Source of the DNA: Brooklawnia cerclae
GTDB taxonomy: Bacteria > Actinomycetota > Actinomycetes > Propionibacteriales > Propionibacteriaceae
DNA: 64,000 bases
Assembly (NCBI RefSeq): GCF_011758645.1
Contig: NZ_JAAMOZ010000001.1
Span: 992,001 to 1,056,000, forward strand
Direction of reading: 5' to 3'
Under the pieces are notes generated by a model, which searched no databases, was not told the origin of the DNA, and saw only the letters and a program-made list of their open reading frames with translations. Within the stretch, counting starts at the first letter, position 1; every line of letters begins with the position of its first letter. The position numbers were made by a program, and so were the translations under genes. Positions 18,358 through 33,246 of the stretch are shown in pieces.

Positions 18358-19680
18358 TCACTTCTCGCCCTGAGCGGCCTTCATGAACCGGCGCTGGTAA
18401 CTGACGACCTGGTTCGTCGAGGTGAACCGTGCCAGGTAGCTGGGCTCCGCGGTCACCACGACGCGATCCGCCATGTCCTCGAACTCCTCGCTGGCCAGCA
18501 GCCTGTCGATGTCGGGGTAGTTCTGGTCACCCTCCATCGAGCAGATGATGAGCCGCGTGTCAGGAAGGTTGGCGTTGCGTAGCACGCGCAGGTTGTGGCG
18601 GACGCCGTCCAGACCGTCGCTGCCCTCGTCGTCCTCGATGTGCCGGTACTCGACGACGGTGCGGGCCTTCTCGACCGCCTGGTCGGGGTCGAAGCCCTCG
18701 TCGGCACCCGAGAGGTAGTCGGTCGAGAGCATGTAGTCGCGCAACTGCACCTTGGCGTCGGCATCACCGGCATCGATGCGATCGAGCAACTCGACGAACT
18801 TGCGTGACTGCACCAGGCGATGGCGGATGAACGAGTTGATGAAGTACGGCCGGGCCTGCAAGGCCATCTGGGTCTGGTAGGGCTCGAACATCAGCGTGTA
18901 GTTGATGCGGTAGCCGGCCTCGTGCAGCTTGAGCGCGAGGTTGTGCCCGCGCAGGGCGTCGGCGGTGCCGGGCTCCCAGTAGCGGGTGTCCAACCGGCCG
19001 TTGCCCTCCAGCAACTGCCCGACGTTGTCGGCGTTCACGGGGCCGGTGTGCGGCACCTTGATGACGACCCGCCATTCCGAGAGCATCTCCTTGAAGAACG
19101 CCGCCTCCTCGAGGATCTTGTTGAAGTCGGGCTCGAAGGGGTTGTTCAGTTCGACCGAGATGTCGACACCGGGGCCCAGGATGCGTCCGAGCTCGGCCAT
19201 CACCTCGTCCCGGGTCGAGAACTTGTGACCGACGTTGGCCTTGTCGTTGTTGATGAACAGGTCGTAGATGATGCCCGGGTTGCAGGTGAGGTTGCCGAGC
19301 AGCGGCGCGATGGGCTCGACCTCGTACGGATTCGCGCTGTCAGCGGAGTAGATCACGTTGGTGGGCCGCTTGCGTCCGTCGGAGTCGTACGAGATGTCTC
19401 GGACGAGGTTCACGTTGAGCAGGCCGTCGGGCTCCAGGTCGTACTCGAAGCGGAAACCCGCGGGGGTGTGCCCGTCAGCGGGCTTGAAGTAGTCGCAGAT
19501 CCGGGCGAACTCGTCGGTGACGCCGATGTACGTCGCACGCTCGGCGATGATCGAGAGTTCCACCGGGTCGAGTCGCTTGTCGAGGACGCGCGTCAGGTGG
19601 TCGCTGACACCACGTGCCGGCTGCAGTCCGAGCGAACGGACGTAGAGGTTCAGCGGCGGCGTGAGGGGGTCGTACGGCAT
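18358..19680 (-). CDS. Transaldolase-like protein with long N-terminal extension
   Basis: A 440-residue protein. From about residue 108 on it follows the transaldolase barrel: strand IYSADSAN with Asp114 where transaldolase has its catalytic Asp, TCNPGIIY (132-139) like TTNPSLI, Lys208 in VIKVPHTG as the Schiff-base lysine, and INYTLMFEPYQTQMALQA (259-276) like INVTLIFSLEQA. The first 107 residues are an extension not found in ordinary transaldolases, and the C-terminus is also longer. A ketose/aldose transaldol reaction or a related retro-aldol cleavage is likely. It is the last gene of the leftward operon that also codes for an FGGY kinase, an aldolase and a transporter. Confidence 0.7.
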   Translation of the reverse strand: MPYDPLTPPLNLYVRSLGLQPARGVSDHLTRVLDKRLDPVELSIIAERATYIGVTDEFARICDYFKPADGHTPAGFRFEYDLEPDGLLNVNLVRDISYDSDGRKRPTNVIYSADSANPYEVEPIAPLLGNLTCNPGIIYDLFINNDKANVGHKFSTRDEVMAELGRILGPGVDISVELNNPFEPDFNKILEEAAFFKEMLSEWRVVIKVPHTGPVNADNVGQLLEGNGRLDTRYWEPGTADALRGHNLALKLHEAGYRINYTLMFEPYQTQMALQARPYFINSFIRHRLVQSRKFVELLDRIDAGDADAKVQLRDYMLSTDYLSGADEGFDPDQAVEKARTVVEYRHIEDDEGSDGLDGVRHNLRVLRNANLPDTRLIICSMEGDQNYPDIDRLLASEEFEDMADRVVVTAEPSYLARFTSTNQVVSYQRRFMKAAQGEK

Positions 19681-19686
19681 TGTCTA

Positions 19687-20166
19687 TCAGGCTCCTTTGG
19701 GTGAGTTCTTGCGGGGGAGGAGATTGCGTTCGGCCAGCCCGCGCTCGATGGTCGTGATGGCGCGGGTGTGGCGGACGATGAGGTATCCCAGCGGAATGAG
19801 GAAGATGGCCAGTGCCATCGACAACGGTGCGTTGGTGGGATAGATGAACACGATGGCGATGATCACGACGAAGCCGCCGAGGGTCTCTCGCAGGCGTGCA
19901 CCCTGAAGGTGCTTGCGCGTGTCGAGCAGATTGGCGAGGATGGCTTTCTTCTCCGACGTCGTCTGTTCACGCGACAGATCCTGGTAGAGCTCGGTGCGAT
20001 GTTCCGTCGCGTCCCGCCGCTGCAGGATGAAGCCCCGGACGAGGTAGGCGACCGCGATCACCGCCACTCCCACCGCGAAGGGGTATTGCCCACGTGACCA
20101 GAAGATCGTGGACAGCACACCGCATGACGCGATCGTCATGAGGTAGAAAGCCCATCGGTTCGTCAT
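19687..20166 (-). CDS. Small membrane protein of the catabolic operon
   Basis: A 159-residue protein with two pairs of membrane segments (about 8-24 and 30-48, then 95-112 and 117-133) and a charged cytoplasmic loop between them (QRRDATEHRTELYQDLSREQ). I recognise no family. Its start codon overlaps the stop of the FGGY kinase (ATGA), so its translation is coupled to a catabolic enzyme; it ends 6 bp before the transaldolase-like gene. A transport or anchoring role is a guess. Confidence 0.75.
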   Translation of the reverse strand: MTNRWAFYLMTIASCGVLSTIFWSRGQYPFAVGVAVIAVAYLVRGFILQRRDATEHRTELYQDLSREQTTSEKKAILANLLDTRKHLQGARLRETLGGFVVIIAIVFIYPTNAPLSMALAIFLIPLGYLIVRHTRAITTIERGLAERNLLPRKNSPKGA

Positions 20167-21497
20167 GCAGCCAGCCTTCCGTTGTGATGGCGGACGAGTT
20201 CGACGTTGCCCAGCACGGAGCAGTTGTCGACCACCTCGAAGGTGAAGCCGGGGAACTCCTGTTCCTTCAACTTGATGAACGCGGGGCCCGACAATCCACC
20301 CGTGAGCTTGATCACGCTGTCGAGATCGACGACGTCAGACGCGAGCTTGACCACGTCGTACAGCACCCGGTTCATCGACTTGAGCATGGCGGCGAGCATC
20401 TCGTCCCGGGTGGCCGCCAGGGTGAGGCCGTGCCAGGCACCGGTTCGCTTCTCCAGGCTCTGCCGGTCGCCGGTGAGGTAGGGGTCGAAGGTGACCTCGC
20501 CGTCGGCGACGAACCGCTCGACACAGCTGGGCAGGTACTCGTTGTTGAACGTGGCGCGGTCGAGCTCGCGGCAGAACTGCTCGTAGAACCAGTCGATGCC
20601 GAAACCGCCCGCGGTGGTGGCGTAGATCTGCCAGACGCCCGGCAGGGCGGAGTTGCGCAGGTAGTAGCCGGGGTTGGTGACGGGCTTGTCGATCAGGATG
20701 CTGACCATGTCGCTGCTGCCGGCGGTGTTCATAATGCGGCCGGCGCGGTCGTTGCGGGCGCCCATCTGGGCCGAGGCCATGTCGTTGGTGCCGACGGCGA
20801 CGGGGATCCCAGCCGGGATGCCGAAACGCTCGGCCACCTCGGGCAGCAGCGTGCCCAGGAACTCACCGGGGTTGCGGATGTCGCCGAACCACTCGTGCTT
20901 GAGCCCGAAGGCGTCGAGCAACTCCGCCGACCAGCCGCCCTGGGAGGTCGTCTCGTACAGGCCCAGCATGGACGCGTTCACGAGGTCGACCATCCATTCG
21001 CCGGTGAGGCGGTGGTGCACATAGGTCGGCAGGTGCCCGATGCGGTACGTGTTCTCCAGCACCTCGGGCTCGTTCTGCTGCATCCACAGGATGGTCATGA
21101 TGCCGGCGCCGCCCGCGAAGGGGTAGATGCCCGCGATGGACAGGTACCGCTCCTTGCCGACGACCTCGTCGATGTAGTCGGTGATGGCGCGGCTGCGGCG
21201 GTCCATGTGCGTGATGATGTTCGGGTAGGCCAGCGTCCCGTCCTCGGCGATGAAGACCGGCGAGGGGGAGAACGTGTCGTAGCACAGGGCGCCGACCTGC
21301 GAGCGGAGATCGGCGGGCAGCCGCTGCGCGGCCTGCTCGGTGGCTTCGAAGAGCACGTCCGGATCGATCTCGACCTTCTCTCCCGGCAGCAGGATGTAGG
21401 GGTATTCCTGCTTCTGCGAGGCGAGCACGGTGAGGTTGTCGTCCAGCACCTCCATCTTGACTGTGGAGGTGCCGAAGTCGATGGACAGGTAATACAT
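20163..21497 (-). CDS. FGGY-family carbohydrate kinase
   Basis: A 444-residue kinase of the FGGY family, which phosphorylates sugars or polyols with ATP. The N-terminal phosphate loop reads SIDFGTSTVKMEV (5-17), the catalytic base is Asp239 in AVGTNDMASAQMG, and the adenine loop is KLTGGLSG near 404. The subfamily (xylulose, erythritol, apulose, or other) cannot be set from motifs. It sits 18 bp after the DHDPS-like aldolase and overlaps the membrane-protein gene by four bases, so all are one operon. Confidence 0.85.
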   Translation of the reverse strand: MYYLSIDFGTSTVKMEVLDDNLTVLASQKQEYPYILLPGEKVEIDPDVLFEATEQAAQRLPADLRSQVGALCYDTFSPSPVFIAEDGTLAYPNIITHMDRRSRAITDYIDEVVGKERYLSIAGIYPFAGGAGIMTILWMQQNEPEVLENTYRIGHLPTYVHHRLTGEWMVDLVNASMLGLYETTSQGGWSAELLDAFGLKHEWFGDIRNPGEFLGTLLPEVAERFGIPAGIPVAVGTNDMASAQMGARNDRAGRIMNTAGSSDMVSILIDKPVTNPGYYLRNSALPGVWQIYATTAGGFGIDWFYEQFCRELDRATFNNEYLPSCVERFVADGEVTFDPYLTGDRQSLEKRTGAWHGLTLAATRDEMLAAMLKSMNRVLYDVVKLASDVVDLDSVIKLTGGLSGPAFIKLKEQEFPGFTFEVVDNCSVLGNVELVRHHNGRLAA

Positions 21498-21515
21498 CGC
21501 GGTGATGATCCCTTC

Positions 21516-22436
21516 TCAGGCCTGGAAGTTGTGGAGTCGTTCGAGACCGGACTCCAGCGCGGTGCGGATCTCGGCCTCCTGCTCGGGGGTGACGGGGCGG
21601 ATCGGGCGGCGCGGGGCGCCGGCGTGGTAGCCGCGCAGGTTCATGGCGGCCTTCAGACTCGCGACCCCCTGCTTGCCACCGCCGCTCTTCGCCACGGCGG
21701 CCAGGATGCGGTAGTAGCGGCGAGCGGCCTCGGGGCTCTCGCCGAAGTAGAGGTCGGTGAGCCGGGCGCACTCGTCGGGCAGGTAGTCGGACGCGGAGAC
21801 GACGCCGCCGATGCCCCCGAAGGCGAGGGCGGTCATGATGTTGCTCAACGAGCCGGCGAGCACTTCGAAGTCGTCGCGAGCCCCGGCGGCGAGCATGTAG
21901 TCGGCCATCATGGCGGGCGAGGTGTCCTTGATGCCGTCGATGTTCGGGTGGTTGGCCAACTCGGTCAGCGCGTTCGGCGGGACGACGACCCCGTTGGCGT
22001 AGCCCGGGGCCACGTACAGGAGGATCGGGACCGGGCTGGCATCCGCGACCGCGGTGTAGTAGTCGATGAGTGCCGGCCCGTTCGCCAGCTTGGCGAAGTA
22101 GTTGGGGGTCAGGACGGAGATGTAGTCGATCCGGTCCATCCAGGGTTCCAGCGATCTGATGAACTCGATCGTGGTGCGCGTGGACTCACGGCCCGCGCCG
22201 GCGATGAGGGTCTTGTCGCCCTTGAGCCCGGCGGCCGTGCCGATCACGGTGCGGGACTCGTCGTCGTCGAGCGCCTTGAACTCGCCGTTCGTGCCGAGCA
22301 CCATGTAGCCGGCGACGCCGGTTTCCCCCCACAGCCCGAAGTTGTGCTCCAGTGCGGCGACGTCGACGGCGTCGTCCCTGCCGGCATCGAAGGGTGTGGC
22401 GACGGGGATGATGATGCCGCGCAGTTTCTCGCTCAT
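21516..22436 (-). CDS. DHDPS/NAL-family aldolase
   Basis: A 306-residue class I aldolase of the dihydrodipicolinate synthase family. The pyruvate-binding loop is GTNGEF (48-53), the catalytic Tyr is Tyr141 in LLYVAPGYANG, and the Schiff-base Lys is Lys170 in IDGIKDTSP. True DapA proteins act in lysine synthesis, but this copy is in a catabolic operon, so cleavage of a 2-keto-3-deoxy sugar acid, or a related dehydration, is more likely. The start at 22436 follows AAAGGAG; the apparent longer frame upstream is non-coding. Confidence 0.85.
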   Translation of the reverse strand: MSEKLRGIIIPVATPFDAGRDDAVDVAALEHNFGLWGETGVAGYMVLGTNGEFKALDDDESRTVIGTAAGLKGDKTLIAGAGRESTRTTIEFIRSLEPWMDRIDYISVLTPNYFAKLANGPALIDYYTAVADASPVPILLYVAPGYANGVVVPPNALTELANHPNIDGIKDTSPAMMADYMLAAGARDDFEVLAGSLSNIMTALAFGGIGGVVSASDYLPDECARLTDLYFGESPEAARRYYRILAAVAKSGGGKQGVASLKAAMNLRGYHAGAPRRPIRPVTPEQEAEIRTALESGLERLHNFQA

Positions 22437-22522
22437 GGATCTCCTTTGTTCGATGGATCGACTCGTCGATGGCCTGGGGGACGTGGGGGCGGCCCCTTTC
22501 GGTGGCCGCCCCCACGTGGTGG

Positions 22523-24016
22523 TTAGAGCGCTTGGAAGAACTGGATGAGGCCGATCACGCCCATGACGGTCATGGCCACGCCGGAGATCGCGAGGATCAC
22601 CTGCATGAGTGGCTTCATACGCAGATTCGCCGGTAGCACCTTGTGTTCTGTGTAGAGCAGGATGAACGCCCACAGGCCCAGGGCGAACACGCCGCCAAGG
22701 ATGCCCGCGAACGAGATCACCACCGTGTAGCTCACACCCGAGACGGCGAGGATGATGGCAGTGCCGAGGGTGTAGGTGGCGACGGCGAGCTTGACCTTGA
22801 ACCAGTTCTTCGGGTTGTTCAGGGCCGGGAAGGCCGGCGAGAACGCCTCACGGAACGTGTACGGATAGGTCGTCGTCAGCAGTGCCTGCATCGAACCCCA
22901 GAAGGCGCACCAGATGGCCAGCTGATACAGGTACTTCAACACCGGGAGGATGTTCGTGAAGAACCGTGCCTGCTCCTCCAGGATGTTCGTGTCGCTCGGC
23001 ACCTGACGCACCCCGTCGGTGCCGAGGATGACGGTGCCGAGGATCATGAAGGTCATGGCGAAGATGCCGACCGCGATGAACGAGGTGACGGCGTCGATCT
23101 TGACGGCCTTGACGCCGAGGCGAGCGCGATCGAGGTTCTCGTCGTCCTGGGCGATCGGGATGAGTTGGCCAGGGCCCAGCGCCTGAAGCTGCGCGTTGAT
23201 CTCCGCGTTGTCGGAGCGGCCGAGCATGCCCCAGGTCTTCTCGCGGAAGGTACCGACGTAGCCGATGTAGTCGTAGAGGCCGCCGCCGAGAGCGCCCAGG
23301 TACGAGATGATCTCCATCGGGATGGCGCGTGCGGCGACCGACGGGAAGTCGGCCTGCACCCAGTCCGGGTAGCTGCTGGGCAGCTGCGGCAGGAGGCCCT
23401 CGAGGACGCCGCCCCAGTTCGGGGTCGAGACGAACACCGCGATGAGCGAGAAGAACACCATGATGCCGACGATGACGGTCTGCAGGTTCTCGACGACGCT
23501 GAAGTTCTTGATCCACAGCGTCGCGTAGGCGATGAGGCCCCACAGGATGCCTGCCCACAGCCAGTTGCCGCTCTGACCGGTGAAGGTCCACGGGGTCCAC
23601 TGCGACAGGGCGAGGATGTAGGCGACGCACCATGCCGGGAAGCAGACGGCCGCGAGGATGCCGAAGAACACGGCCAGCCAGTGGCGGCCGATGCCCGACG
23701 TGCCGACGCCGGGGAGCAGGTGCCCCATGCGCTGGAACGGATGCTCACCGGTGATCACCATGTAGCGACCGGCGGCGTAGGTCACCGTGGCCTTGAAGAT
23801 CGCACCGAAGAGGAACGTCCACAGGATCGTGTAACCAAAAATGGCGCCACCGCGAGTGGCGGAGAAGATCTCGCCGTTGCCGATGGTGACCGAGGCCAGG
23901 ATGAAACCCGGGCCGACAATGCTCAACAGGTCGAAGAACTTCTTGGAAGAGAGCTTCGGCTCTTGTTCGGGATACCGCAGAGGCTCCAGTACGGGTTGTT
24001 CAACCCCAGTACTCAT
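22523..24016 (-). CDS. Nramp-like membrane transporter lacking metal motifs
   Basis: A 497-residue protein with 11-12 membrane segments and the Nramp (SLC11) fold signature GPGFILASVTIGNGE near 35-49. Real metal-ion Nramps have DPGN in the first helix and MPH in the sixth; here the first is replaced by ASVTIGNGE and I find no MPH (the region reads EIISYLGALGGGLYDYIGY). It is the first gene of the leftward operon, with a clear AAAGGAG site before the ATG at 24016. Given the motifs and neighbours, it is probably not a metal importer; uptake of the island's organic substrate is my inference. Confidence 0.8.
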   Translation of the reverse strand: MSTGVEQPVLEPLRYPEQEPKLSSKKFFDLLSIVGPGFILASVTIGNGEIFSATRGGAIFGYTILWTFLFGAIFKATVTYAAGRYMVITGEHPFQRMGHLLPGVGTSGIGRHWLAVFFGILAAVCFPAWCVAYILALSQWTPWTFTGQSGNWLWAGILWGLIAYATLWIKNFSVVENLQTVIVGIMVFFSLIAVFVSTPNWGGVLEGLLPQLPSSYPDWVQADFPSVAARAIPMEIISYLGALGGGLYDYIGYVGTFREKTWGMLGRSDNAEINAQLQALGPGQLIPIAQDDENLDRARLGVKAVKIDAVTSFIAVGIFAMTFMILGTVILGTDGVRQVPSDTNILEEQARFFTNILPVLKYLYQLAIWCAFWGSMQALLTTTYPYTFREAFSPAFPALNNPKNWFKVKLAVATYTLGTAIILAVSGVSYTVVISFAGILGGVFALGLWAFILLYTEHKVLPANLRMKPLMQVILAISGVAMTVMGVIGLIQFFQAL

Positions 24017-24314
24017 CGGATCGCTCCTTTGTGACCGGGGAGCTGCGCCGGGTGCGACAGCTCCGGAACCGCCACCGACCCGCCGAACAATATTGATACG
24101 GGCGAGTCGTGGGTGGAATGCGTCGCGCGGCATGCGTGACGCGGAGGATGGCTGAAGTCCAGCGCCTCGGCGGGCCGGTTCGTCACGGCGGATGTCCTCG
24201 GTTCGTTCCGGGGGATCGCCTGACCGGTACGCTTGTTGATCGCTGGCAACGCTGCCTCCTTTTTCGGCTGGAGGGCGTCGGCCCGTGGGGCACCTTTGCC
24301 GTCCAGCTTCCTAT

Positions 24315-24344
24315 AGCATAGTTGGCCAAACGTGAGTCGGTCAA
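24315..24344 (-). promoter_or_regulatory. Promoter P1 of the leftward operon with overlapping palindrome
   Basis: On the minus strand a -35 TTGACC (24339-24344) and a -10 TATGCT (24315-24320) are separated by 18 bp. The -10 lies within CTATAGCATAG (24311-24321), a CTAT-N3-ATAG palindrome that could be a repressor operator. The transcript would have a leader of about 290 nt before the transporter start. Confidence 0.55.
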
Positions 24345-24506
24345 GAAGGCTCGCGCTTCGGGAAGACGACCGTCGGGGCTTGTCAGAACCCGTCGGTCGT
24401 CACCGGATTGGCGTCCAATCGCGGCTTCTCCGGGGCGCTGTCACGCGGCGACGGCGACTCCCGGACGTCCTTGATGTCGGCCGAGCCATCCAACCAACTT
24501 TCCTAT

Positions 24507-24535
24507 ATCATAGTGGTGTCCGGAGGGTTTGTGAA
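24507..24535 (-). promoter_or_regulatory. Promoter P2 of the leftward operon with overlapping palindrome
   Basis: A second minus-strand promoter reads -35 TTCACA (24530-24535), 17 bp, -10 TATGAT (24507-24512). The -10 again lies in a CTAT-N3-ATAG palindrome (CTATATCATAG, 24503-24513), 192 bp from the first. The repeated arrangement in a 626-bp gene-free gap argues for specific regulation. The rightward gene's own promoter is not evident. Confidence 0.5.
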
Positions 24536-24642
24536 AACCCGAGGCTCCCGGAGGTCAGCCCATCGTCCGAGTTGGCCTCCCGGCCGCTGGCAACGAAGCC
24601 ACGTGCCCACACACGCACGTGTCACCTGAAAGGGAGTAGTGC

Positions 24643-25596
24643 ATGCAGATCAACAAGATCGCGGTCGTCGGGGCAGGCTACATGGGGGGTGGCATCGCGC
24701 AGGAGTACGCGATCGCCGGGCACCCTGTCGTCCTGGCCGACGTGGACGCGGAACTGACGCGTAAGAACCGGGCACGCCTCGTCGCGGAGGCCAAGGACTG
24801 GGAGGAGCGAGGCCTGTTCCGTCCGGGTGAGGCCGCCCTCGTCGAGCAGAACCTCTCCGCGGGCGAGAGCATCGAGGCGGCCGTGGCCGACGCCGATTAC
24901 ATCCAGGAAGCCGTTCCGGAGGTGCCCGAGATCAAGGAGCAGGTGTATCGCCGGATCGAAGCGGCCTGCCGGCCCGACGCCGTGATCGCGAGCAACACCT
25001 CCACCCTGCCGATCGGGCAGCTGGCCGAGGCCCTCGAGCACAAGGGACGCTTCCTCGGCGTCCACTTCTCTAACCCCGCGCCGTTCATCCCCGGCGTCGA
25101 GATCATCGCCCACGAGGGAACAGACGAGGCGATCGTCCCCGATGTCGAGGCGCTGGTCGCCCAGACCGGCAAGCTCACCGCGCGTGTCAAGGACTCGCCC
25201 GGTTTCTGCCTCAACCGCCTGCAGTACGCGCTGCTCAAGGAGGCCATCAACATGGTGGACGAGGGGGTCGTCACGGCCGAGGACCTCGACATCGTCGTGC
25301 GGACGACCTTCGGGTTCCGTCTGCCGTTCTTCGGGCCGTTCGCCATCGCCGACATGGCAGGTCTGGACGTCTACCTGAACTGCTTCCGCACCTTCGAGGA
25401 CCACTACGGTGAGCGTTTCGCCACCCCCGAGGGCCTCAAGGAACTCGTCGCGGGTGGCCATCTCGGCACGAAGAAGGGTGGCGGTTTCGTGATCCCGGCG
25501 GGCGACACCACCGAGTTGGTCGCCTACCGCAACACTGCCTACGGACGCCTGGCACGCCTGGTGGACGAACTCGGCCAGGCGCCGGCCGTCAAGTGA
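24643..25596 (+). CDS. 3-hydroxyacyl-CoA dehydrogenase-like hydroxyacid dehydrogenase
   Basis: A 317-residue NAD-dependent dehydrogenase. The Rossmann motif is GAGYMGGG (10-17), Asp33 at the end of the second strand favours NAD, and the catalytic pair His141/Glu (GVHFSNPAPF, with Asn144) and SNTST (117-121) are in place. The C-terminal all-helical domain includes DSPGFCLNRLQYALLKEA. Relatives include 3-hydroxyacyl-CoA dehydrogenase, carnitine dehydrogenase and L-gulonate 3-dehydrogenase; no other beta-oxidation gene is nearby, so oxidation of a free beta-hydroxy sugar acid is likelier. It is the first gene of a rightward pair with the TIM-barrel gene. Confidence 0.8.
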   Translation: MQINKIAVVGAGYMGGGIAQEYAIAGHPVVLADVDAELTRKNRARLVAEAKDWEERGLFRPGEAALVEQNLSAGESIEAAVADADYIQEAVPEVPEIKEQVYRRIEAACRPDAVIASNTSTLPIGQLAEALEHKGRFLGVHFSNPAPFIPGVEIIAHEGTDEAIVPDVEALVAQTGKLTARVKDSPGFCLNRLQYALLKEAINMVDEGVVTAEDLDIVVRTTFGFRLPFFGPFAIADMAGLDVYLNCFRTFEDHYGERFATPEGLKELVAGGHLGTKKGGGFVIPAGDTTELVAYRNTAYGRLARLVDELGQAPAVK

Positions 25597-25634
25597 CACC
25601 ACCAGAATCCGACACGCACAAAGGAACACAGACC

Positions 25635-26576
25635 ATGCCCAAGTACACCGCTGACAATTGGCCGATCGCCTGCCCGATGCTCTTGTTCGGGGGTCTGGAC
25701 TCCAAGGGGGGCCCGATCCAGGATGCGGCGCCCGAGGAGTGGGACCGGCAGATGCGTGAGGTCTCGCTGATGGGCTTCACCGAGATGGACCCGCTCGACG
25801 TGTGGGTCCGCGTCGGCGACCTGTCGCCCGAGCGGCTCGACCTGTTCAAGCAGGTGATGGCTGCCAACAACCTGACCATCCCGGGAGTCTCGACCTCGCG
25901 CAAGAGCTTGGTGGACGCCGACCGCGGCGCCGATTACCTGGCCTACGGCCATCGGGTCATCGATGCTGCGGTTCTGCTGGGGGCTCGCTACGTGAGCTTC
26001 GGGTTCTTCCAGGCGACCACTCCGGCGCAGAACGCCGCGATCTGGTTCTGGCTGGCCGACGGGTACAAGGACTCGCCCGATCCCGAGATCTACCAACTCG
26101 CGGTCGCGCGCGTCCGTGAACTGGCGAAGCACGCGGCATCCGTGGGCATCGAGATCACCCTCGAGATGTACGAGGACACGTACCTGGGCAGCTCCGAGGG
26201 TTGCCTTCAGTTCGTCCAGGACGTCGACCATCCCGCCTGCGGCCTGAACCCCGACTTCGGGAACCTCGTCCGCCTGCACCGGCCGTTGGAACCGATCACC
26301 GAGGCGTTCGAGCGGATGCTGCCGTACACGAACTACTGGCACATCAAGAACTACACGCGTGACTTCGATCCGGCCACCGGCTCCTACGCGACGCACCCGG
26401 TTCCCCTGGGCGGCGGGTACGTGAACTATCGGCCCATCATCGCCCGTGCCCTGGAACTCGGTTTCGAGGGCGCCTTCATGGTGGAGCACTACGGGTCCGA
26501 CTCGCTGTGGAACCTGGCCGAGAGCCGCGAGTACCTGAGGTCGGTGCTGCGCACCAAGCTGGCTCTTCAGGACTGA
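25635..26576 (+). CDS. Xylose-isomerase-like TIM-barrel protein
   Basis: A 313-residue protein of the sugar phosphate isomerase/epimerase (xylose-isomerase-like TIM barrel) family. A metal site can be read from Glu177 (TLEMYED), Asp207 (NPDFGNL), His236 (YWHIKNY) and Glu284 (VEHYG). Members include isomerases, epimerases, 3-oxo-isoapionate decarboxylase (OiaC) and IolE dehydratase, so the reaction is open. It starts after AAAGGAAC, 38 bp behind the dehydrogenase, so substrate flow dehydrogenase to TIM barrel (oxidation, then decarboxylation or isomerisation) is plausible. Confidence 0.8.
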   Translation: MPKYTADNWPIACPMLLFGGLDSKGGPIQDAAPEEWDRQMREVSLMGFTEMDPLDVWVRVGDLSPERLDLFKQVMAANNLTIPGVSTSRKSLVDADRGADYLAYGHRVIDAAVLLGARYVSFGFFQATTPAQNAAIWFWLADGYKDSPDPEIYQLAVARVRELAKHAASVGIEITLEMYEDTYLGSSEGCLQFVQDVDHPACGLNPDFGNLVRLHRPLEPITEAFERMLPYTNYWHIKNYTRDFDPATGSYATHPVPLGGGYVNYRPIIARALELGFEGAFMVEHYGSDSLWNLAESREYLRSVLRTKLALQD

Positions 26577-26584
26577 GCGGGGTT

Positions 26585-26770
26585 GATCGTCCTTTCGACA
26601 GGCTCAAGGACCTTTTCCCTGAGCCTGTCGAAAGACGTTTCTGAGCTTGTCGAAGAGCTTGAGTTCGTCGGGAGGGGAAAGGACCTTTCGACGGGCTCAA
26701 GGGCCTTTCGACGGGCTCAAGGGCCTTTCGACAAGCTCAAGGAACGCTCGTTGAGCCTGTCGAAACGAGA
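26585..26770. repeat. Cluster of TTCGACA-GGCTCA repeats between convergent genes
   Basis: About eight copies, in both directions, of a short repeat with core TTCGAC(A/G)(G/A)GCTCA or its complement TGAGC(C/T)TGTCGAA fill the 200-bp gap between the TIM-barrel gene and the LarA-like gene. Three head-to-tail copies of CCTTTCGAC(G/A)(G/A)GCTCAAGGG lie at about 26690-26744. The core is the same as the inner arms of the 113-bp array at 11 kb, but the arrangement differs. It could serve as a bidirectional terminator. Confidence 0.85.
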
Positions 26771-26776
26771 TGAGTC

Positions 26777-28069
26777 CTAGTGCGGGGCTGCCGCAGGGAA
26801 GAGGTCGTCGTTGTCGTCGAAGACCAACTCGGCGGGCTCGTCCACCTGCGTGAGGGCGGGGTTGTCGCGGACCTCGTCCAAGAGGGGCTCGGAGACCAGG
26901 ATCTCCTGGACGTCGAGGGTGTTGACGATCCGTACGATCCGGAGGGACAGGGGATCGGGGTTGAGAGTGAGCCGCTCGGCGCACTGGATCGCCATCTTCT
27001 GATTCGGCATGTGCGGCGGCACACGTGAGCCGGCTATGCCGTTCGAGGTCACGCCATTGGTGAACATGGCCACCCAGTCGATGTCGTCGAACAGGCGTTT
27101 GGTGGTGATGTCGGCCAGCCCGATGCCCGTGCTGTTGCCGTGCGACTCCGGCGTCATGTCGAGCACCACGATCTGGTTCACGTGCATGTCGGGGTTCTTC
27201 ACCCCGATCAGCGAGCGTCCCAACACATTGGGATCCATGCCGTCACCCGAGATGTTCTTGCCCATCCAGTCGACCACCAGCACATCGATGTCATGGATCA
27301 GCAGCCGTGGCAGATGCTGACGGCTCTCGGCCAGCAGATCCGGCTCGACGTCGACGATCCGGTCGGTGGGGACGAGCACCACGTCGCGGGTCTGGTCGAG
27401 CGCGTTCTCCAGCACCGCCACCCCGAAGATGATGTTGCCCTTCTCGAAGATCACCGGGGCGATCTTCTCGATGGACTCCCCGGCGCGTCCCAGCCCTCGT
27501 GAGTGCGCCTGGAGTGCACCCCGATGTTTGCCGGTGCCGATGGTGGCCATCTTCATCAGCCCCGACTCGATCGGGCCGACGATGTCGGTGTGCGCCTTCA
27601 CCCGGTTCGTCAGGATGACGCCGTCACAGTTGAGCGCGTCGGTGGAGTACAGCACATCGAGGCCGTCGACCTCGCCCAGCTTGGTCACGTCCAGGCTGGA
27701 GACGATCTCGCAACCCGTGACGTCGGGGGTGAACCCCATACCGAGGAGCATGTCGCGCTGCCCTTCGGCGGTGGCCCCACCGTGGCTGCCCATCGCGGGG
27801 ATGACCACGGGGGTGGCTCCCTGCTGTTTCACCCAGTCCGCGAGTGTGCGCACGATGAGCGGCATGTTGGCGATGCCTCGGGAGCCCGCCGTGATGCCGA
27901 TCCGCTGACCCGAGGCCACCAGGCCGTGGTACTCCGGGGCGGCCAGCTGCCCGGTGATCCGTCCCGGCACATCGTCCAGGGTCGGCGCGGGCAGGTCCTG
28001 GTGGACGCGGGCGAATCGCGGAATCGGGATCTCGTCGAGGATGAGGTTCAGTGAGTTCTTCACGGTCAT
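26777..28069 (-). CDS. LarA-like (DUF2088) protein
   Basis: A 430-residue protein of the nickel-dependent lactate racemase family (LarA, DUF2088 N-terminal domain). PAMGSHGGAT (91-100) matches the ATGTH-type motif around LarA His108, and VKAHTDIVGPIESGLMKM (157-174) covers the region of the second His and cofactor lysine. Relatives racemise or epimerise 2-hydroxy acids with a nickel-pincer nucleotide. No larB, larC or larE maturation gene is in the window. I use the ATG at 28069; an ATG at 28111 overlaps dhaKL and is an alternative. It follows dhaKL in one operon. Confidence 0.75.
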   Translation of the reverse strand: MTVKNSLNLILDEIPIPRFARVHQDLPAPTLDDVPGRITGQLAAPEYHGLVASGQRIGITAGSRGIANMPLIVRTLADWVKQQGATPVVIPAMGSHGGATAEGQRDMLLGMGFTPDVTGCEIVSSLDVTKLGEVDGLDVLYSTDALNCDGVILTNRVKAHTDIVGPIESGLMKMATIGTGKHRGALQAHSRGLGRAGESIEKIAPVIFEKGNIIFGVAVLENALDQTRDVVLVPTDRIVDVEPDLLAESRQHLPRLLIHDIDVLVVDWMGKNISGDGMDPNVLGRSLIGVKNPDMHVNQIVVLDMTPESHGNSTGIGLADITTKRLFDDIDWVAMFTNGVTSNGIAGSRVPPHMPNQKMAIQCAERLTLNPDPLSLRIVRIVNTLDVQEILVSEPLLDEVRDNPALTQVDEPAELVFDDNDDLFPAAAPH

Positions 28070-28100
28070 GTCCTGGTATGGGTCGCGATGGGCAGGGAGG

Positions 28101-29831
28101 TCAGAGCGCATCGAAGGTGCCCGCGTCGCCGAGGGCCTTCATGAGCAGGGAGAACGAAACCGCGCCCGGGTCGGGCACGCCGAGAGATTTGTTCCCGAGC
28201 ACTCGCGAGCGCCCGAGTCTCGAGACGAAATCGGCGGTCTGGTCGGCGGCCGCTTGTGCCGCGTCGGATGCCTGGCGCCAGGCATCCGCGAACCGAGTGC
28301 CGCCTTCCACAGCGGACGACAGCGTCTGCGTGAAGGGAACGAGGGAGTCCACGATCGTCTTGTCGCCGGGCTTCGCCCCACCGAGCCGCTGGACCGCGGA
28401 CACCGCCGCCGCGACGGCGTCCGCGACGGTCGTCGCCGTGGCAGGCTCCTGATCGCCCAGCACGCCGCCGATCGCGGTGAGCATCGAGCCCCAGAGCGCT
28501 CCGGACGTGCCACCGGCGCTCTCCGCCCACTGTGCTCCGGCCCTGACCAGGGTGGTCCCGGCCCCGGCGTCGGCCTGGGCGGCGTCCTTCGCCGCCGAGA
28601 AGGCGCCCGTGGCGCCGAAGCGCATGCCCTGTCCGTGGTCACCGTCGCCGGCGATCGCGTCCAGGTGGCCGAGTTCCTCCTCCTTGTCGACGGTCACCTG
28701 CTGCATCAGCTGCAGTGCGGTCACCACCTTGGCCGCCAGCGCCCGGGAGGCCTCGCTGCCCGGGACGATGGGCTCGGCATGCGGTTCCTCGGCCGAGGCC
28801 ACGTCGCGATGCTCGCGATGGGTCACCGCGCCGCGGCGGAAGGCGATGGTGTCCACCGGGGCGGTCCACAGCGTTTCCAGTTCGTCGTCCAGGAAGGTGA
28901 GGGTCAAGGAGACACCGGCCATGTCGAGGCTCGTCATCAGTTCGCCCACCTCGGGCAGGACGGGGGTGATACCGACCTGGGAGAGCCGTTCGGCGACACG
29001 GTTCCAGGTGACGTAGAGTTCCTCGACCTTGATCGTCCCCAGGCCGTTGAGCAGGACGATCGCGCGTCCCGTGTACCCGTCGGTGCCGATCGCAGGTGCT
29101 TCCGCGAGGACTCCGTCCACCAGCAGGTCGGCCACGCCGGCCGCCGATCCCATCGGCACCTCGTAGATGCCGGGTTCCCCGTGGACGCCGAGCCCGACCG
29201 ACATCTGTCCGGCCGGCACGTGGAACAGGGGCTCGCCGGCACCGGGGAGCGTGCAGCCGTCGAAGGCGACGCCGAGCGACCGGGTGCGGTCGTTGGCCTT
29301 CCATGCGAGTGCCTCGACCTCGTCGATGGACTTGCCCGCCTCCGCGGCCGCGCCCGCGATCTTGAAGACCACGACGTCGCCGCAGACCCCGCGGCGCTTG
29401 CGGAGCTGGTCGGCAGGGGCGGAGGCTACATCGTCGGACACCTCGATCGTCCGCACGTCGATGCCTTCGGCACGCAGCCGTTCGGCGGCCTGGCCGAAGT
29501 GGAGCACGTCACCCGCGTAGTTGCCGTAGGCCAGGACGACGCCGCCGCCGTTGTCCGCGGCCTTCACCACGGAGTATGCCTGCGAGGCCGACGGCGAGGC
29601 GAAGACATTGCCGCAGACCGCGCCATGGGCCATGCCCGGGCCGACCCATCCCGCGAACGCGGGGTAGTGCCCGGAGCCGCCTCCGACCACCAGCGCCACC
29701 TGCCCCTGCGGGCTTGCTGTGGCGCGCACCGCACCGCCATGGACGGCGGTGAGGTATTGCGGGTAGGCCGAGGCCATGCCCGCGACGGCCTCCGTAGCGA
29801 AGCTTGATGGGTCATTGAACAACCGAGTCAT
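28101..29831 (-). CDS. Fused ATP-dependent dihydroxyacetone kinase (DhaK-DhaL)
   Basis: A 576-residue kinase. Residues 1-335 are the DhaK domain, with GGGSGH (50-55) and His217 in GLGVHGEPG, which binds the keto group covalently. After a linker (about 335-360), residues 360-576 are the DhaL nucleotide domain with GDGDHG (395-400). This ATP-using fusion phosphorylates dihydroxyacetone or, in relatives such as DerK and LerK, erythrulose. A GAGGAG site precedes the start and a gap of 203 bp with its own candidate promoter separates it from the transketolase genes. The LarA-like gene follows. Confidence 0.9.
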   Translation of the reverse strand: MTRLFNDPSSFATEAVAGMASAYPQYLTAVHGGAVRATASPQGQVALVVGGGSGHYPAFAGWVGPGMAHGAVCGNVFASPSASQAYSVVKAADNGGGVVLAYGNYAGDVLHFGQAAERLRAEGIDVRTIEVSDDVASAPADQLRKRRGVCGDVVVFKIAGAAAEAGKSIDEVEALAWKANDRTRSLGVAFDGCTLPGAGEPLFHVPAGQMSVGLGVHGEPGIYEVPMGSAAGVADLLVDGVLAEAPAIGTDGYTGRAIVLLNGLGTIKVEELYVTWNRVAERLSQVGITPVLPEVGELMTSLDMAGVSLTLTFLDDELETLWTAPVDTIAFRRGAVTHREHRDVASAEEPHAEPIVPGSEASRALAAKVVTALQLMQQVTVDKEEELGHLDAIAGDGDHGQGMRFGATGAFSAAKDAAQADAGAGTTLVRAGAQWAESAGGTSGALWGSMLTAIGGVLGDQEPATATTVADAVAAAVSAVQRLGGAKPGDKTIVDSLVPFTQTLSSAVEGGTRFADAWRQASDAAQAAADQTADFVSRLGRSRVLGNKSLGVPDPGAVSFSLLMKALGDAGTFDAL

Positions 29832-29918
29832 CGTCGACTCCTCAGGTCAGGGGAGAGTTACCGGAACTGCTGCGGGGCCACCCGGCGTCGCGCCGGTCAC
29901 CCCGCTCGGCAGTAAAAA

Positions 29919-29930
29919 ATCATACATGAT
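29919..29930 (-). promoter_or_regulatory. Candidate -10 and operator upstream of dhaKL
   Basis: The palindrome ATCAT-AC-ATGAT (29919-29930) contains a minus-strand TATGAT -10 (29919-29924). No good -35 is found 17 bp upstream. The AT-rich island stands in a GC-rich gap and resembles the -10/palindrome arrangement at 24.3 and 24.5 kb. Confidence 0.4.
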
Positions 29931-29991
29931 CGATGCTTTGGTGACGCCGCCGGTCACCGGGCGTGACCCCAGCGCCGTCGGCGTCGCGTGA

Positions 29992-30025
29992 CTTTCCGGT
30001 GCAGGCCTCCACCCGCACCGGAAAG
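29992..30025 (-). terminator. Hairpin after the transketolase genes
   Basis: A perfect 11-bp stem, CTTTCCGGTGC (29992-30002) with GCACCGGAAAG (30015-30025), begins 10 bp after the stop codon of the transketolase C-terminal subunit. It lacks a T-run. It separates the rpiB-like/transketolase unit from dhaKL, which then needs its own promoter. Confidence 0.65.
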
Positions 30026-30034
30026 CCGTCGTCC

Positions 30035-30967
30035 TCAACGCGACACGAACTCGGTCACCTGCCGGACGATGCCGGCGGCGTCCAGTCCCGCGTACTCCAG
30101 CAGGCCGTCGTAGGGCCCCGAGGGCGCGTAGGCGTGCGGGACGCCGACCAGACGCATCCGGGTCGGCTGCTCCTGGGCGAGCAGTTCGGCGACCGCTCCG
30201 CCGAGACCACCTGTGACGTAGTGCTCCTCCACCGTGACCACCGCTCCCGTGCGGGCGGCGGACGCGCAGATCAGCTCGGCGTCCAGATGGGAGGGGGTCG
30301 GCATGCCGATGAGATCGACGCCGATGCCCCGCTCGGTCAGGAGGTCGACGGCCGCGACGGTCTCCGTGGTGATGTAACCGGTGGTGATGACCGTCACGTC
30401 CGAGCCCTCGCGCAGGTGGCGTCCCTTGCCGATGACCACCGGCTCCTCATCGAAGAGGTCGGGCAGGGGCTGGGCGCCGATGCGCGTGTAGGTGGGCCCG
30501 TCGTGCTCGATCATCGCGGCCACGCAACTGCGCAACTCGCCGGGGTCGCTCGGCGCGAAGACCACGACCCCGGGGATCATGCGGATGATCGCATAGTCCT
30601 CGAGGGAGTGGTGCGTGGCACCGAGGTCGGAGTACGTGAAGCCGCCGTTGCGCCCGACGATCTTGGCGTTCTGGCGCATGTAGCCGAGATCGTTGCGGAA
30701 CATCTCGTAGTTGCGGCTCGTGACGAACGGCGCGATGGCCGCGAACACCGGGATGAGTCCCGTGGACGCCATTCCGGACGCGATGCCGGTGACGCCCTGC
30801 TCCATGATCCCGAACTCGAAATAGCGGTCGGGGTGCGCCGTGGCGAACTCGCCGAACCCGGAACTCTTGCCCGAGTCGGCCGACAGCACGACGATGCGTT
30901 CGTTGTCGTCGGCCAGGGCCGTCACTGCCCGCCCGAACTCCTTGCGGGGATCCGTCAGACCACTCAC
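30035..30967 (-). CDS. Transketolase, C-terminal subunit
   Basis: A 310-residue protein corresponding to the middle and C-terminal domains of transketolase. The Glu that activates the thiamine ring is Glu56 in FEFGIMEQGVTG. Together with the preceding gene it makes a two-subunit enzyme, a form seen in archaea and in specialised pathways such as apulose-4-phosphate transketolase (AptAB) and sulfo-transketolase (SqwGH). Its GTG start overlaps the stop of the N-terminal subunit gene (GTGA). A separate housekeeping transketolase presumably lies elsewhere. Confidence 0.88.
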   Translation of the reverse strand: MSGLTDPRKEFGRAVTALADDNERIVVLSADSGKSSGFGEFATAHPDRYFEFGIMEQGVTGIASGMASTGLIPVFAAIAPFVTSRNYEMFRNDLGYMRQNAKIVGRNGGFTYSDLGATHHSLEDYAIIRMIPGVVVFAPSDPGELRSCVAAMIEHDGPTYTRIGAQPLPDLFDEEPVVIGKGRHLREGSDVTVITTGYITTETVAAVDLLTERGIGVDLIGMPTPSHLDAELICASAARTGAVVTVEEHYVTGGLGGAVAELLAQEQPTRMRLVGVPHAYAPSGPYDGLLEYAGLDAAGIVRQVTEFVSR

Positions 30968-31833
30968 TTCACCGCTCCCTCAAGCTGCTTCGCGGAGTTC
31001 TCGAGCTGTGCGATCCTCGCGTCCAACTCGGCGACCGCGCGGGCCAACTCGTCGTCCTTGGGCTTCCAGTAGTGGTAGGCGGCCTGGTCCTCGGCGAAGG
31101 CGAGGCCCTTGGCCTTGACCGTGTGGGCGACGATGAGGCTCGGCTTCCCGGATTCGAACGGGGTCGCGTCGAGTGCCTCCAGCACCTGGGACATGTCGTT
31201 GCCGTCGATCTCACGGGTCGCCCAGCCGAAGGCCGCGAACTTGCCCGCGATGGGCGCCATGCTCATCACGTCGGACACGCGGCCCGAGATCTGCAGGTCG
31301 TTGTTGTCGACGACGACCACGAGGTTGTCGGCTCCGTGGTGGGCGGCCGCGGCAGCAGCCTCCCAGTTGGAGCCCTCGGGCAACTCGCCGTCGCCGGTGA
31401 CCACGAAGACGCGCGCGGCGATGCCCTGCTTGCGCAGCCCCAGCGCCATGCCCGTGGCGATCGACAGGCCGTGGCCGAGCGCCCCGGTGTTGGCCTCGAC
31501 GCCCGGCAGCTTGTGCATGTCGGGATGCCCGCCGAGAGCCGTCCTCATGGCGCCGTAGGTGTCGAGGAGGGACGTGTCGAAGAATCCTCGCTCCGCCAGC
31601 ACGGCGTACTGGCCCATGGCCTTGTGGCCGGCCGACAGCAGGAAGCGGTCACGCTCGGGCCAGTCGGGCCGTGCCGGGTCGACGCGCATGATGTCGAAAT
31701 AGAGGGCCGTCAGGACGTCGATCGCCGACATGGCGCCGCCGAGGTGGCCGGAGTGGCCGGTCTCGATCATGCGGACCACGTTGCGCCGACACCTTGCCGC
31801 GATGAGCTCGAGGTTGGCGACGCGGTCGCTCAC
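30964..31833 (-). CDS. Transketolase, N-terminal subunit
   Basis: A 289-residue thiamine diphosphate-binding subunit. The cofactor/Mg motif begins with GDGEL (147-151) and ends with NNDLQISG (177-184); GHSGHLGGAMS near 26-36 is a family hallmark. It transfers two-carbon units together with the C-terminal subunit. The GTG start overlaps the stop of the RpiB-like gene by four bases, giving three coupled genes. Confidence 0.88.
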   Translation of the reverse strand: MSDRVANLELIAARCRRNVVRMIETGHSGHLGGAMSAIDVLTALYFDIMRVDPARPDWPERDRFLLSAGHKAMGQYAVLAERGFFDTSLLDTYGAMRTALGGHPDMHKLPGVEANTGALGHGLSIATGMALGLRKQGIAARVFVVTGDGELPEGSNWEAAAAAAHHGADNLVVVVDNNDLQISGRVSDVMSMAPIAGKFAAFGWATREIDGNDMSQVLEALDATPFESGKPSLIVAHTVKAKGLAFAEDQAAYHYWKPKDDELARAVAELDARIAQLENSAKQLEGAVK

Positions 31834-32270
31834 AGCTGCTCGGCCTCGATCTCGGTGATCCGGGCGACCTTGGCGCCGCTACGCGAGTTCGGGTCGAACG
31901 AGTTCTTCAGGTACTCCTCGAGCAGCACCTTGGCCACCTCGACACCGATCACCTGCTGGCCCATGGCGATCATGTTGGCGTTGTTCGACAGGGTCGCGCG
32001 CTGAGCCTGGTAGACGTCGGACAGCAGGGCGCAGTAGGCGCCCTTGACCTTGTTGGCGGCGATGGAGACGCCGATTCCCGTGCCGCAGACCACGACGCCC
32101 CGGTCGGCCTTGCCGGCGGCGACGTCGCGGGCCACATCGGCGGCGACGTTGGCGTAGATCGGATCGTCCGAACCGTAGTCGACGGTCTCGTGACCGAGCG
32201 ATTCGGCCTTCTCGATGAGGGCCTTCTTCAGGTCTGCGGCGTTCGGGTCACAGCCGAATGCGATCTTCAT
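31830..32270 (-). CDS. RpiB/LacAB-family isomerase, probably for an acyclic sugar phosphate
   Basis: A 146-residue isomerase. The base Cys62 in VVVCGTGIGVSIAANK is kept. The DH motif near the N-terminus is DPN here (GCDPNAADLK), and the ring-opening histidine of RpiB (in RQHNDTN of E. coli) is replaced (ATLSNNANM). That suggests a substrate that cannot form a ring, such as a tetrose or tetrulose 4-phosphate, as for DerI. The ATG at 32270 follows CGGAGGAAAA. It heads the operon with the two transketolase subunits. Confidence 0.82.
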   Translation of the reverse strand: MKIAFGCDPNAADLKKALIEKAESLGHETVDYGSDDPIYANVAADVARDVAAGKADRGVVVCGTGIGVSIAANKVKGAYCALLSDVYQAQRATLSNNANMIAMGQQVIGVEVAKVLLEEYLKNSFDPNSRSGAKVARITEIEAEQL

Positions 32271-32334
32271 TTTTCCTCCGGGCGGTTGTCGGGCCGGGCA
32301 GCGGGACGCATCATCGCGCCGCCTTTCGTCATTC

Positions 32335-32346
32335 AGGATATATGAT
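32335..32346. promoter_or_regulatory. AT-rich element between rpiB-like gene and SDR
   Basis: AGGATATATGAT is the only AT-rich stretch in the 196-bp divergent gap. It contains a plus-strand TATGAT and shares the ATGAT half-site with the palindrome upstream of dhaKL. It could be an operator/-10 region for either gene, but no -35 is clear. Confidence 0.35.
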
Positions 32347-32466
32347 TCTTCCGAGGTTCGGCAGTCGGGTCGGCCGGGCGAGGACGCACCGGACCACCCG
32401 TCAGCGAGCACCTCAACCATACGGACCCGCGAGGCCGCGGGTCGGGACAGTTCAAAGGAGAAACGC

Positions 32467-33246
32467 ATGTCCGAAACCGGAAACCCGTTCCCACCCGCTC
32501 GTACGGCCGTCGTCACAGGCTGCGGGCATCCGGCGGGCATCGGGCGCCGGGTGGCGCGCCGCCTGGCGCAGTCCGGCTACAGCATCGCCGCGCTCGACAT
32601 CAACCCCCAGGTCGCCGATTTCGGCGTCGAGCTGGCCGCGGAGTTCCCCGGCCTGGCCGTGGCCGGTTTCGTCTGCGACATCGCGGACGAGGACTCGGTG
32701 AAGGCCGCGTGGGAGCGCATCGATGCGGAATTGCCCCCGGTCACGGGCCTGGCCAACGTCGCCGGCATCGCATGCCCGACCCCGTTGTTCGAGCTCACCG
32801 TGGAGGAGTTCGACCGGGTGATGGCCGTCAACGCGCGGGGCACGATGCTCATGATGAAGTACGGGGCGCAGCGCATGAGGACCACCGGCGTCGGCCGGAT
32901 GGTCAACTTCTCGTCGATCACCGCCTACGACGGGGGCGGGACGTTCAGCAAGATCGCCTACGCGGCCGCGAAGGCCGCTGTGATCGGTCTGGCGCGTGGT
33001 GGCGCTCGCGAGCTCGGTCAGTACGGGATCACCTGCAACGCGATCTGTCCCGGCCCGATCGACACTGAGATCATGGGTGGCAAGCTGACCGACGATCGGA
33101 AGGCCTCGATGTCGGCCGACATCCCGCTCGGCCGGGTCGGTCAGCCGACCGAGATCGCTAACGTGGTCGATTTCCTCCTGTCGGAGGGTGCGAGCTTCGT
33201 CAACGGCGCCACCTTCAACGTCGACGGCGGCAAGCACATGAAGTGA
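32467..33246 (+). CDS. Short-chain dehydrogenase/reductase at island edge
   Basis: A 259-residue SDR. The cofactor motif is TGCGHPAGIG (17-26), with two residues more than the usual TGxxxGxG; Asp43 after the second strand points to NAD. Catalytic residues are Asn121, Ser149 (NFSSITAY), Tyr164 and Lys168 (YAAAK). It is divergent from the rpiB-like gene and has an ideal AAAGGAG site, so it looks like part of the island: oxidation of a polyol to a ketose (as D-threitol dehydrogenase does) would fit, but the substrate is unknown. Confidence 0.85.
   Translation: MSETGNPFPPARTAVVTGCGHPAGIGRRVARRLAQSGYSIAALDINPQVADFGVELAAEFPGLAVAGFVCDIADEDSVKAAWERIDAELPPVTGLANVAGIACPTPLFELTVEEFDRVMAVNARGTMLMMKYGAQRMRTTGVGRMVNFSSITAYDGGGTFSKIAYAAAKAAVIGLARGGARELGQYGITCNAICPGPIDTEIMGGKLTDDRKASMSADIPLGRVGQPTEIANVVDFLLSEGASFVNGATFNVDGGKHMK

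Follow-up and report, generated by a model that had tools for sequence, protein, structure and literature searches.

D-Apionate is converted through erythrulose to erythrose 4-phosphate by a route whose xylose-isomerase-family decarboxylase branch comprises ApnO, OiaC, LerK, LerI and DerI, and in this known scheme a TPI-like isomerase is required for L-erythrulose 1-phosphate. Here we describe a block of 13 genes from Brooklawnia cerclae, which resembles this C5-acid route in grouping at a single locus the genes for a DhaKL kinase, an RpiB-type isomerase, a transketolase, an acid dehydrogenase and a TIM barrel protein of the AP_endonuc_2 family. The block occupies positions 18358-33246 of a 64,000-nucleotide window, meaning the whole stretch analysed (RefSeq assembly GCF_011758645.1, contig NZ_JAAMOZ010000001.1, positions 992,001 to 1,056,000, forward strand); the loci used for comparison carry L numbers and their own coordinates. 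The block is a coherent and conserved catabolic gene set, and we see an even chance that it degrades a sugar acid to D-erythrose 4-phosphate, with a C5 aldonate or a branched C5 acid as the best candidate.

The block differs from the D-apionate route in having a 3HCDH-type dehydrogenase in place of the PF16896 enzyme (phosphogluconate dehydrogenase C-terminal type) and a TIM barrel of a different subfamily. It also has no TPI-like gene, and adds a split transketolase, a LarA homologue and Nramp-like, DHDPS-family, FGGY-family and transaldolase-like proteins. We take the PF16896 protein to be the apionate oxidoisomerase, which fits its context in Pantoea and Paracoccus; a Pfam scan detected this family in none of the 13 block proteins. 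In the Pantoea locus (L088), it is found together with tkt, rpiB, an MFS gene, DhaKL, a TPI-like gene and an AP_endonuc_2 TIM barrel, and in Paracoccus its neighbours are OiaX and a four-carbon acid sugar kinase. By analogy, the two loci may represent a parallel C5-acid route. The B. cerclae genome itself contains a PF16896 protein with a second DhaKL (58% identical to that of the block) and an MFS transporter at 9278-14156 of L079 (G000:C1:2222000-2241999).

Two other described pathways were compared with the block. The four-carbon acid pathway was rejected, with no DUF1537 kinase, class II aldolase or 3-oxo-tetronate-phosphate decarboxylase among the 13 proteins. The D-apiose transketolase pathway (AplK, AptA, AptB) shares a split transketolase, an FGGY kinase and an SDR with the block, and on this basis D-apiose could be isomerised to apulose, phosphorylated and cleaved non-oxidatively by a transketolase of the AptA/AptB type. 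The block transketolase (N-terminal subunit 30964-31833, Transketolase_N 162 bits; C-terminal subunit 30035-30967, Transket_pyr and Transketolase_C; both on the minus strand) has the right architecture and shares 45%/35% identity with E. coli SE15 AptA/AptB, but it is equally near another split transketolase of its own genome (45%/33%). Moreover, E. coli AplK and the FGGY kinase of the block do not match at 1e-4, the block contains no ABC transporter such as the ribose-type genes of the E. coli locus, and the RpiB protein and the additional acid-type enzymes (the LarA homologue and the 3HCDH enzyme) would be left over. We therefore regard the D-apiose route as very unlikely. The resemblance to D-apiose use suggested in the initial annotation is weak, whereas that to erythrulose and sugar-acid breakdown is upheld.

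We found no description of this gene set in the literature, within a search whose coverage of subscription papers was weak, and the passages available from PMC6302742, PMC11747546 and PMC13001218 contain none. No proven substrate for such clusters turned up in the sources searched, in agreement with the initial annotation.

Recurrence of the core in other actinobacteria

Family assignments were made using Pfam or NCBIfam profiles, with bit scores compared to the model cut-offs. Four genes of the block encode a 3HCDH-type NAD dehydrogenase (24643-25596, plus strand; 3HCDH_N, the NAD domain, 171 bits, and 3HCDH), a xylose-isomerase-like TIM barrel protein of the 5TNV family (25635-26576, plus strand; AP_endonuc_2 92 bits), a fused DhaKL kinase (28101-29831, minus strand; Dak1 and Dak2) and an RpiB/DerI-like isomerase (31830-32270, minus strand; LacAB_rpiB 139 bits). 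The set had been thought to match no single known pathway, but this core recurs in other actinobacterial families. A close relative of the TIM protein was found in 13 of 296 genomes of the class, at 14 places including two in B. cerclae, and the 12 places in other genomes were compared over 20 kb each (12 kb for L065). Near the TIM gene, DhaKL and RpiB were each detected in 10 of these 12 loci, the 3HCDH enzyme in eight (55-64% identical) and an SDR relative in four (46-65% identity, with at least 40% required for counting). A TPI-like protein accompanies eight loci, identified by profile in L057, L059, L060, L061, L062 and L065 and by eye in L058 and L064. Acid transporters with family support are present in six loci: GntP-family proteins in L057 (279 bits, cut-off 293) and L058, MFS proteins with the D-galactonate type as best match, below the model cut-off, in L059 and L060, and TctA in L062 and L063. 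The count becomes eight when the plain MFS proteins of L061 and L064 are included. In L063, an enzyme of the isopropylmalate/tartrate-dehydrogenase type adjoins the TIM gene.

The clusters most similar to the block (L057-L061, L064, L067 and L086) share four to five homologous enzymes with it, at about 42-65% identity. Unlike the block, they contain a GntR/FCD regulator in several cases (by profile L057, L060, L061 and L064), a TPI-like gene (by profile L057, L059, L060 and L061) and GntP or MFS transporters, and they are without the six other block families at 1e-8 (1e-6 for L086). The block is a variant on a recurring sugar-acid/ketotetrose core, extended by six families that went undetected around the core of the 12 class loci.

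The core extends to plasmids, where 93 records contain a TIM relative. Six of these loci were opened, and in all four that are annotated, each alphaproteobacterial, the TIM gene is found with GntR, PdxA, a tripartite tricarboxylate transporter and DhaKL (the last by tblastn in L076). Using tblastn, TIM, DhaKL, RpiB, 3HCDH and SDR relatives were detected in an unannotated Arthrobacter plasmid locus, and TIM and DhaKL in an unannotated Sinorhizobium one.

Three further loci show other arrangements. L056 (8559-10618) has the core at its smallest, a 3HCDH and TIM pair, and relatives of DhaKL and RpiB are absent from the stretch. In L066 (6615-15484), TIM, DhaKL and RpiB are accompanied by a Bmp-type ABC transporter and a protein of the adenosine-deaminase family, a neighbourhood at odds with a simple aldonate substrate. 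The second 5TNV-family TIM protein of B. cerclae (L055, 9917-10897) is 51% identical to that of the block; its neighbours, judged by eye, include a GntR-like gene, MFS transporters and a 2-hydroxyacid-dehydrogenase-like gene, and no relatives of 3HCDH, DhaKL or RpiB were found in that stretch.

The same core enzymes could also serve polyol catabolism of the threitol/erythritol type, in which the SDR (32467-33246, plus strand; adh_short_C2 200 bits) would make erythrulose, DhaKL and RpiB would convert it to erythrose 4-phosphate, and the acid enzymes would be accessory. DhaKL and RpiB suit this scheme, and according to the passages available from PMC12780249, Mycolicibacterium smegmatis routes both erythritol and threitol to erythrose 4-phosphate. 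However, the SDR scores 160 bits against the GolD/DthD model, below its cut-off of 286, acid-type transporters stand beside the core in at least six of the 12 loci, and the LarA homologue and the 3HCDH enzyme would have no explanation, which makes a polyol substrate rather improbable. In the sugar-acid pathway that we favour, the SDR is a possible entry or side reaction.

Organization and conservation of the block

All families listed in the initial annotation were matched by Pfam or NCBIfam profiles, and its gene list stands as given with the addition of an overlooked open reading frame (ORF) of 159 amino acids (19687-20166). Its proposal of two tight operons was based on gene overlaps. Three four-base overlaps are present (FGGY/ORF159, 20163-20166; RpiB/TktN, 31830-31833; TktN/TktC, 30964-30967), but an overlap between the 3HCDH and TIM genes proved to be an artefact of the longest ORF, the TIM start with a good ribosome-binding site being at 25635, and the genes form four transcription units by strand. 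Unit A (18358-24016, minus strand) encodes the Nramp-like, DHDPS and FGGY proteins, the 159-aa ORF and the transaldolase-like protein; unit B (24643-26576, plus strand) the 3HCDH-type dehydrogenase and the TIM barrel; unit C (26777-32270, minus strand) RpiB, both transketolase subunits, DhaKL and the LarA homologue; and unit D (32467-33246, plus strand) the SDR. As stated earlier for this block, no regulator lies inside it: none of the 13 proteins matched a regulator family in the Pfam and NCBIfam scans.

The LarA homologue was detected in 15 of 37 genomes searched (B. cerclae and relatives), including three of seven congeners, and at 1e-40 in four of 147 genomes of the family sample, B. cerclae included; those relatives that bear names are Propionibacteriaceae. 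In the same three congeners, the 13 genes are colinear and on the same relative strands, with 49-87% protein identity (tblastn); the stretch fetched for one of them (L038) ends within the transaldolase-like gene and does not reach Ku. Unlinked operons in close relatives had been named beforehand as a possible refutation. The operons are linked, since all three congeners carrying the LarA homologue keep the same order. Two of the four congeners without this gene have Ku, which is followed there by other genes; three of the four are draft assemblies with at least 300 contigs. Thus, the presence of the block varies inside a single genus.

The two divergent intergenic regions of the block each contain one match to TATATSAT, at 24504-24511 (Nramp/3HCDH) and 32339-32346 (RpiB/SDR), both on the plus strand. 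These are the only matches in the 64 kb, against 0.06 expected, an expectation that is post hoc because the motif was picked by eye from alignments and then counted. Both regions carry the motif in L038 and one region in L039 and L040, the RpiB/SDR region having it in all three. TATATSAT may be a -10 element or an operator. No exact words of 10 or more bases are shared between the two divergent regions in the three genomes compared.

Predicted roles of the core enzymes

The TIM protein aligns to 5TNV with 351 bits, and its residues E177, D207, H236 and E284, which we take to be metal ligands, are invariant in 18 aligned sequences. From its context, we propose that it acts as a 3-oxo-acid decarboxylase or an isomerase. 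OiaC was considered as its identity and rejected, since at 1e-4 the TIM barrel of the Pantoea locus is not matched. The 3HCDH enzyme is proposed to oxidise the 3-hydroxy group of a sugar acid, and its NCBIfam and PDB neighbours fail to separate acyl-CoA from sugar-acid dehydrogenases.

DhaKL shows 50% identity to the Pantoea kinase and 54-62% to the Paracoccus kinase, two actinobacterial kinases and the second B. cerclae copy; the third paralogue of the genome is 39% identical. These pairwise identities suggest a candidate ketotetrose-type kinase. RpiB scores 147 bits with the general RpiB model NF004051 (cut-off 135), and we propose that it would convert D-erythrulose 4-phosphate to D-erythrose 4-phosphate.

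The LarA homologue and its possible cofactor supply

The LarA homologue (26777-28069, minus strand) scores 468 bits with NF052515, above the cut-off of 400 bits, which places it in group 22 of the nickel-pincer isomerases. Activities of the LarA superfamily in the passages available from PMC7583248 and PMC11770544 act on 2-hydroxy acids. In LarA, His108 and His174 are the proton carriers, and Lys184 and His200 bind the cofactor (PMC11770544, in part), and a two-histidine mechanism is given in the passages from PMC12611868. The phrase "group 22" is absent from the main text of these three papers, and the parts available report no activity for this group. No solved relative of the block protein was found by sequence at E 0.1.

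Residues H110 and H174 of the block homologue align with histidines of the canonical LarA of the same genome in a weak alignment (E 0.011), and an alignment of 18 LarA relatives shows H110, H174, K187 and H203 to be invariant. H110 and H174 would be the counterparts of LarA His108 and His174, and K187 and H203 probably those of Lys184 and His200. The block protein thus resembles group 22 of the LarA superfamily in its profile score, in the aligned histidine pair and in the presence of nickel-pincer nucleotide synthesis genes in its genome: larC, larB and larE stand together 1.06 Mb away, all over the profile cut-off. LarC is present in all 15 carriers of the LarA homologue and in 22 of the 37 genomes (P 2e-5), a co-occurrence that is confounded because the genomes are related and other LarA proteins are present, one of them in B. 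cerclae. This canonical LarA (Lar_N, LarA_C; L093, 18834-20000) was missed when the genome was searched with the block homologue.

The genomic contexts of relatives include sugar-acid genes. Group 22 relatives identified by profile adjoin tripartite tricarboxylate transporter, enolase and UxaA genes in Sporomusa, and Lut, four-carbon kinase and PdxA genes in Rubrobacter, whereas a 40% identical LarA relative in Paenibacillus adjoins UxaC, an SDR and larEBC. The block protein is proposed to be a sugar-acid C2 epimerase.

Several neighbourhoods seen during these comparisons are of interest in themselves. The larE-larB-larC operon (L068, G000:C1:2070000-2086000) has two neighbours: a gene of the LacI type, named by eye, and another catabolic operon, which encodes a zinc-type dehydrogenase, a GPH-type transporter and a second split transketolase. 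At 5705-9859 of L093, a UPF0261 protein, a class II aldolase, an MFS-like transporter and a TPI-like isomerase are followed by a GntR-like gene, possibly another sugar-acid locus. A plasmid of Rubrobacter indicoceani (L075, 1979-10260) carries an Nramp gene together with Lut, four-carbon acid sugar kinase, PdxA and group 22 LarA genes.

Unit A proteins

The first gene of unit A (22523-24016, minus strand) encodes an Nramp-like membrane transporter, which is over the cut-offs of both Pfam Nramp (40 bits, cut-off 29.8) and NF037982 (77 bits, cut-off 50) and is conserved in the three congeners. The motif DPGN, the metal-binding motif of transmembrane helix 1 in Nramp proteins, is absent from it and aligned to GNGE (D to G, N to E). 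Full-length relatives (34-35% identity over 91% of the length) adjoin UxaA, LUD and enolase-type genes in Haladaptatus. On the strength of the altered motif and these neighbours, we propose that the protein is an organic-acid permease.

The DHDPS-family aldolase or dehydratase (21516-22436, minus strand; Pfam DHDPS 113 bits) has human 4-hydroxy-2-oxoglutarate aldolase as its best solved relative (143 bits), a kinship that leaves the substrate unfixed. The FGGY carbohydrate kinase (20163-21497, minus strand; FGGY_N 118 bits) is 86-87% identical in the congeners and distant from named kinases, its best NCBIfam model being XylB (148 bits, cut-off 380). The hydrophobic 159-aa ORF (19687-20166, minus strand) has no family match and is 49-51% identical in the three congeners; judged by eye, it probably encodes a small membrane protein.

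The last protein of the unit (18358-19680, minus strand) is transaldolase-like, with a long N-terminal extension. It scores 34.5 bits with TAL_FSA (cut-off 27), and a relative from Tessaracoccus 29.1 bits. Its match to fructose-6-phosphate aldolase (FSA) is weak and local (residues 243-300), with the lysine outside the alignment. K208, within VIKVPHT, is invariant in three aligned sequences and would be the candidate Schiff-base lysine; the AlphaFold model (pLDDT 46) was too poor for use. Among 394 class genomes, the protein was matched only in B. cerclae. It is also present in the three congeners and in Tessaracoccus sp. SD287 (59% identity). A contig scan gave two loci, in the metagenome-assembled genome Propionibacterium sp. 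AS27yjCOA_218 and in Tessaracoccus sp. SD287, and since its queries were two short peptides taken from three close relatives, one of which is this metagenome-assembled genome, more distant relatives may have been overlooked; a plasmid search gave no match. FGGY at 1e-80 and the Nramp-like protein at 1e-40 were each found in one of 246 genomes, that of B. cerclae, under thresholds that exclude weaker relatives. Together, the DHDPS, FGGY and transaldolase-like proteins probably make up a second arm, acting on a related substrate.

The distribution of unit A raises the question of two pathways side by side, with unit A serving one substrate, the remaining genes another, and the neighbourhood being historical. 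At 1e-8, relatives of unit A were absent from the stretches of all 12 class loci, few genomes of the class carry unit A proteins at the thresholds applied, and the Tessaracoccus transaldolase-like gene is without other unit A proteins, save for an FGGY protein 4.6 kb away that is 25% identical. Nevertheless, the gene order is the same in three congeners with interleaved strands, and TATATSAT is present in both divergent promoter regions. We consider two independent pathways unlikely, though more probable than a polyol or D-apiose substrate.

Proposed pathway

From the gene families, their conserved linkage and a core that recurs, often with acid-type transporters nearby, we infer the chemical steps and substrates of a single pathway. 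The sugar acid would be imported by the Nramp-like permease, and the LarA homologue would invert its C2 to give the epimer accepted by the dehydrogenase. The 3HCDH-type enzyme would then oxidise the 3-hydroxyl with NAD, and the TIM protein would decarboxylate the resulting 3-oxo acid, or isomerise it and so drive decarboxylation, giving the ketotetrose erythrulose. Phosphorylation by DhaKL and conversion of erythrulose 4-phosphate by RpiB would produce erythrose 4-phosphate, which the split transketolase would pass to the pentose phosphate pathway. As a side entry, the SDR may supply erythrulose or an aldehyde.

A number of observations weigh against this pathway. The Nramp-like, DHDPS, FGGY, transaldolase-like, LarA and split transketolase families were not found near the core in any of the 12 class loci at 1e-8, and their place in the pathway is therefore drawn solely from linkage in one genus. 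Four of these loci (L056, L065, L066 and L067) are without an acid-type transporter: none was seen in L056, sugar-type ABC genes lie nearby in L065 and L067 (by eye), and the ABC transporter of L066 is of the Bmp type. L061 and L064 have MFS proteins of unspecified kind only. The TIM protein and its Pantoea counterpart, both AP_endonuc_2, give no BLASTP match at 1e-4, so that its decarboxylase role is read from context, and in loci with PdxA or isopropylmalate/tartrate-type enzymes the dehydrogenase itself could decarboxylate, with the TIM protein doing another job. The 3HCDH enzyme is no more distant from acyl-CoA dehydrogenases than from the lambda-crystallin type, and RpiB scores 132 bits with the D-erythrulose-4-phosphate isomerase model NF051858, below the cut-off of 240. 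The larCBE genes could serve the canonical LarA rather than the block homologue, and tblastn at 1e-6 found no match between the block Nramp-like protein and the Nramp gene that neighbours the group 22 gene in Rubrobacter. Finally, the cluster contains no TPI-like isomerase, and therefore either D-erythrulose would be formed from a D-series acid or this activity would be supplied in trans; a TPI-like protein 53% identical to that of L057 is encoded elsewhere in the genome.

A bolder interpretation, which we offer tentatively as an appreciable possibility, is that the block encodes a new aldonate pathway. In this pathway, a nickel-pincer enzyme from an uncharacterised group would invert C2 before 3-oxidation and decarboxylation to a ketotetrose, import would proceed through an Nramp-fold protein that has ceased to carry metal, and in a second arm a new and deeply divergent transaldolase-type aldolase would cleave the ketose phosphate produced by a new FGGY kinase.

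Because it exists in four colinear copies, the block is easy to test. The sources searched assign no role to this uncharacterised nickel-pincer group, to TIM barrels of the 5TNV family or to Nramp relatives linked to sugar acids. If the proposed sugar-acid pathway is true, it would supply all three with a physiological setting and with the class of substrate to expect.

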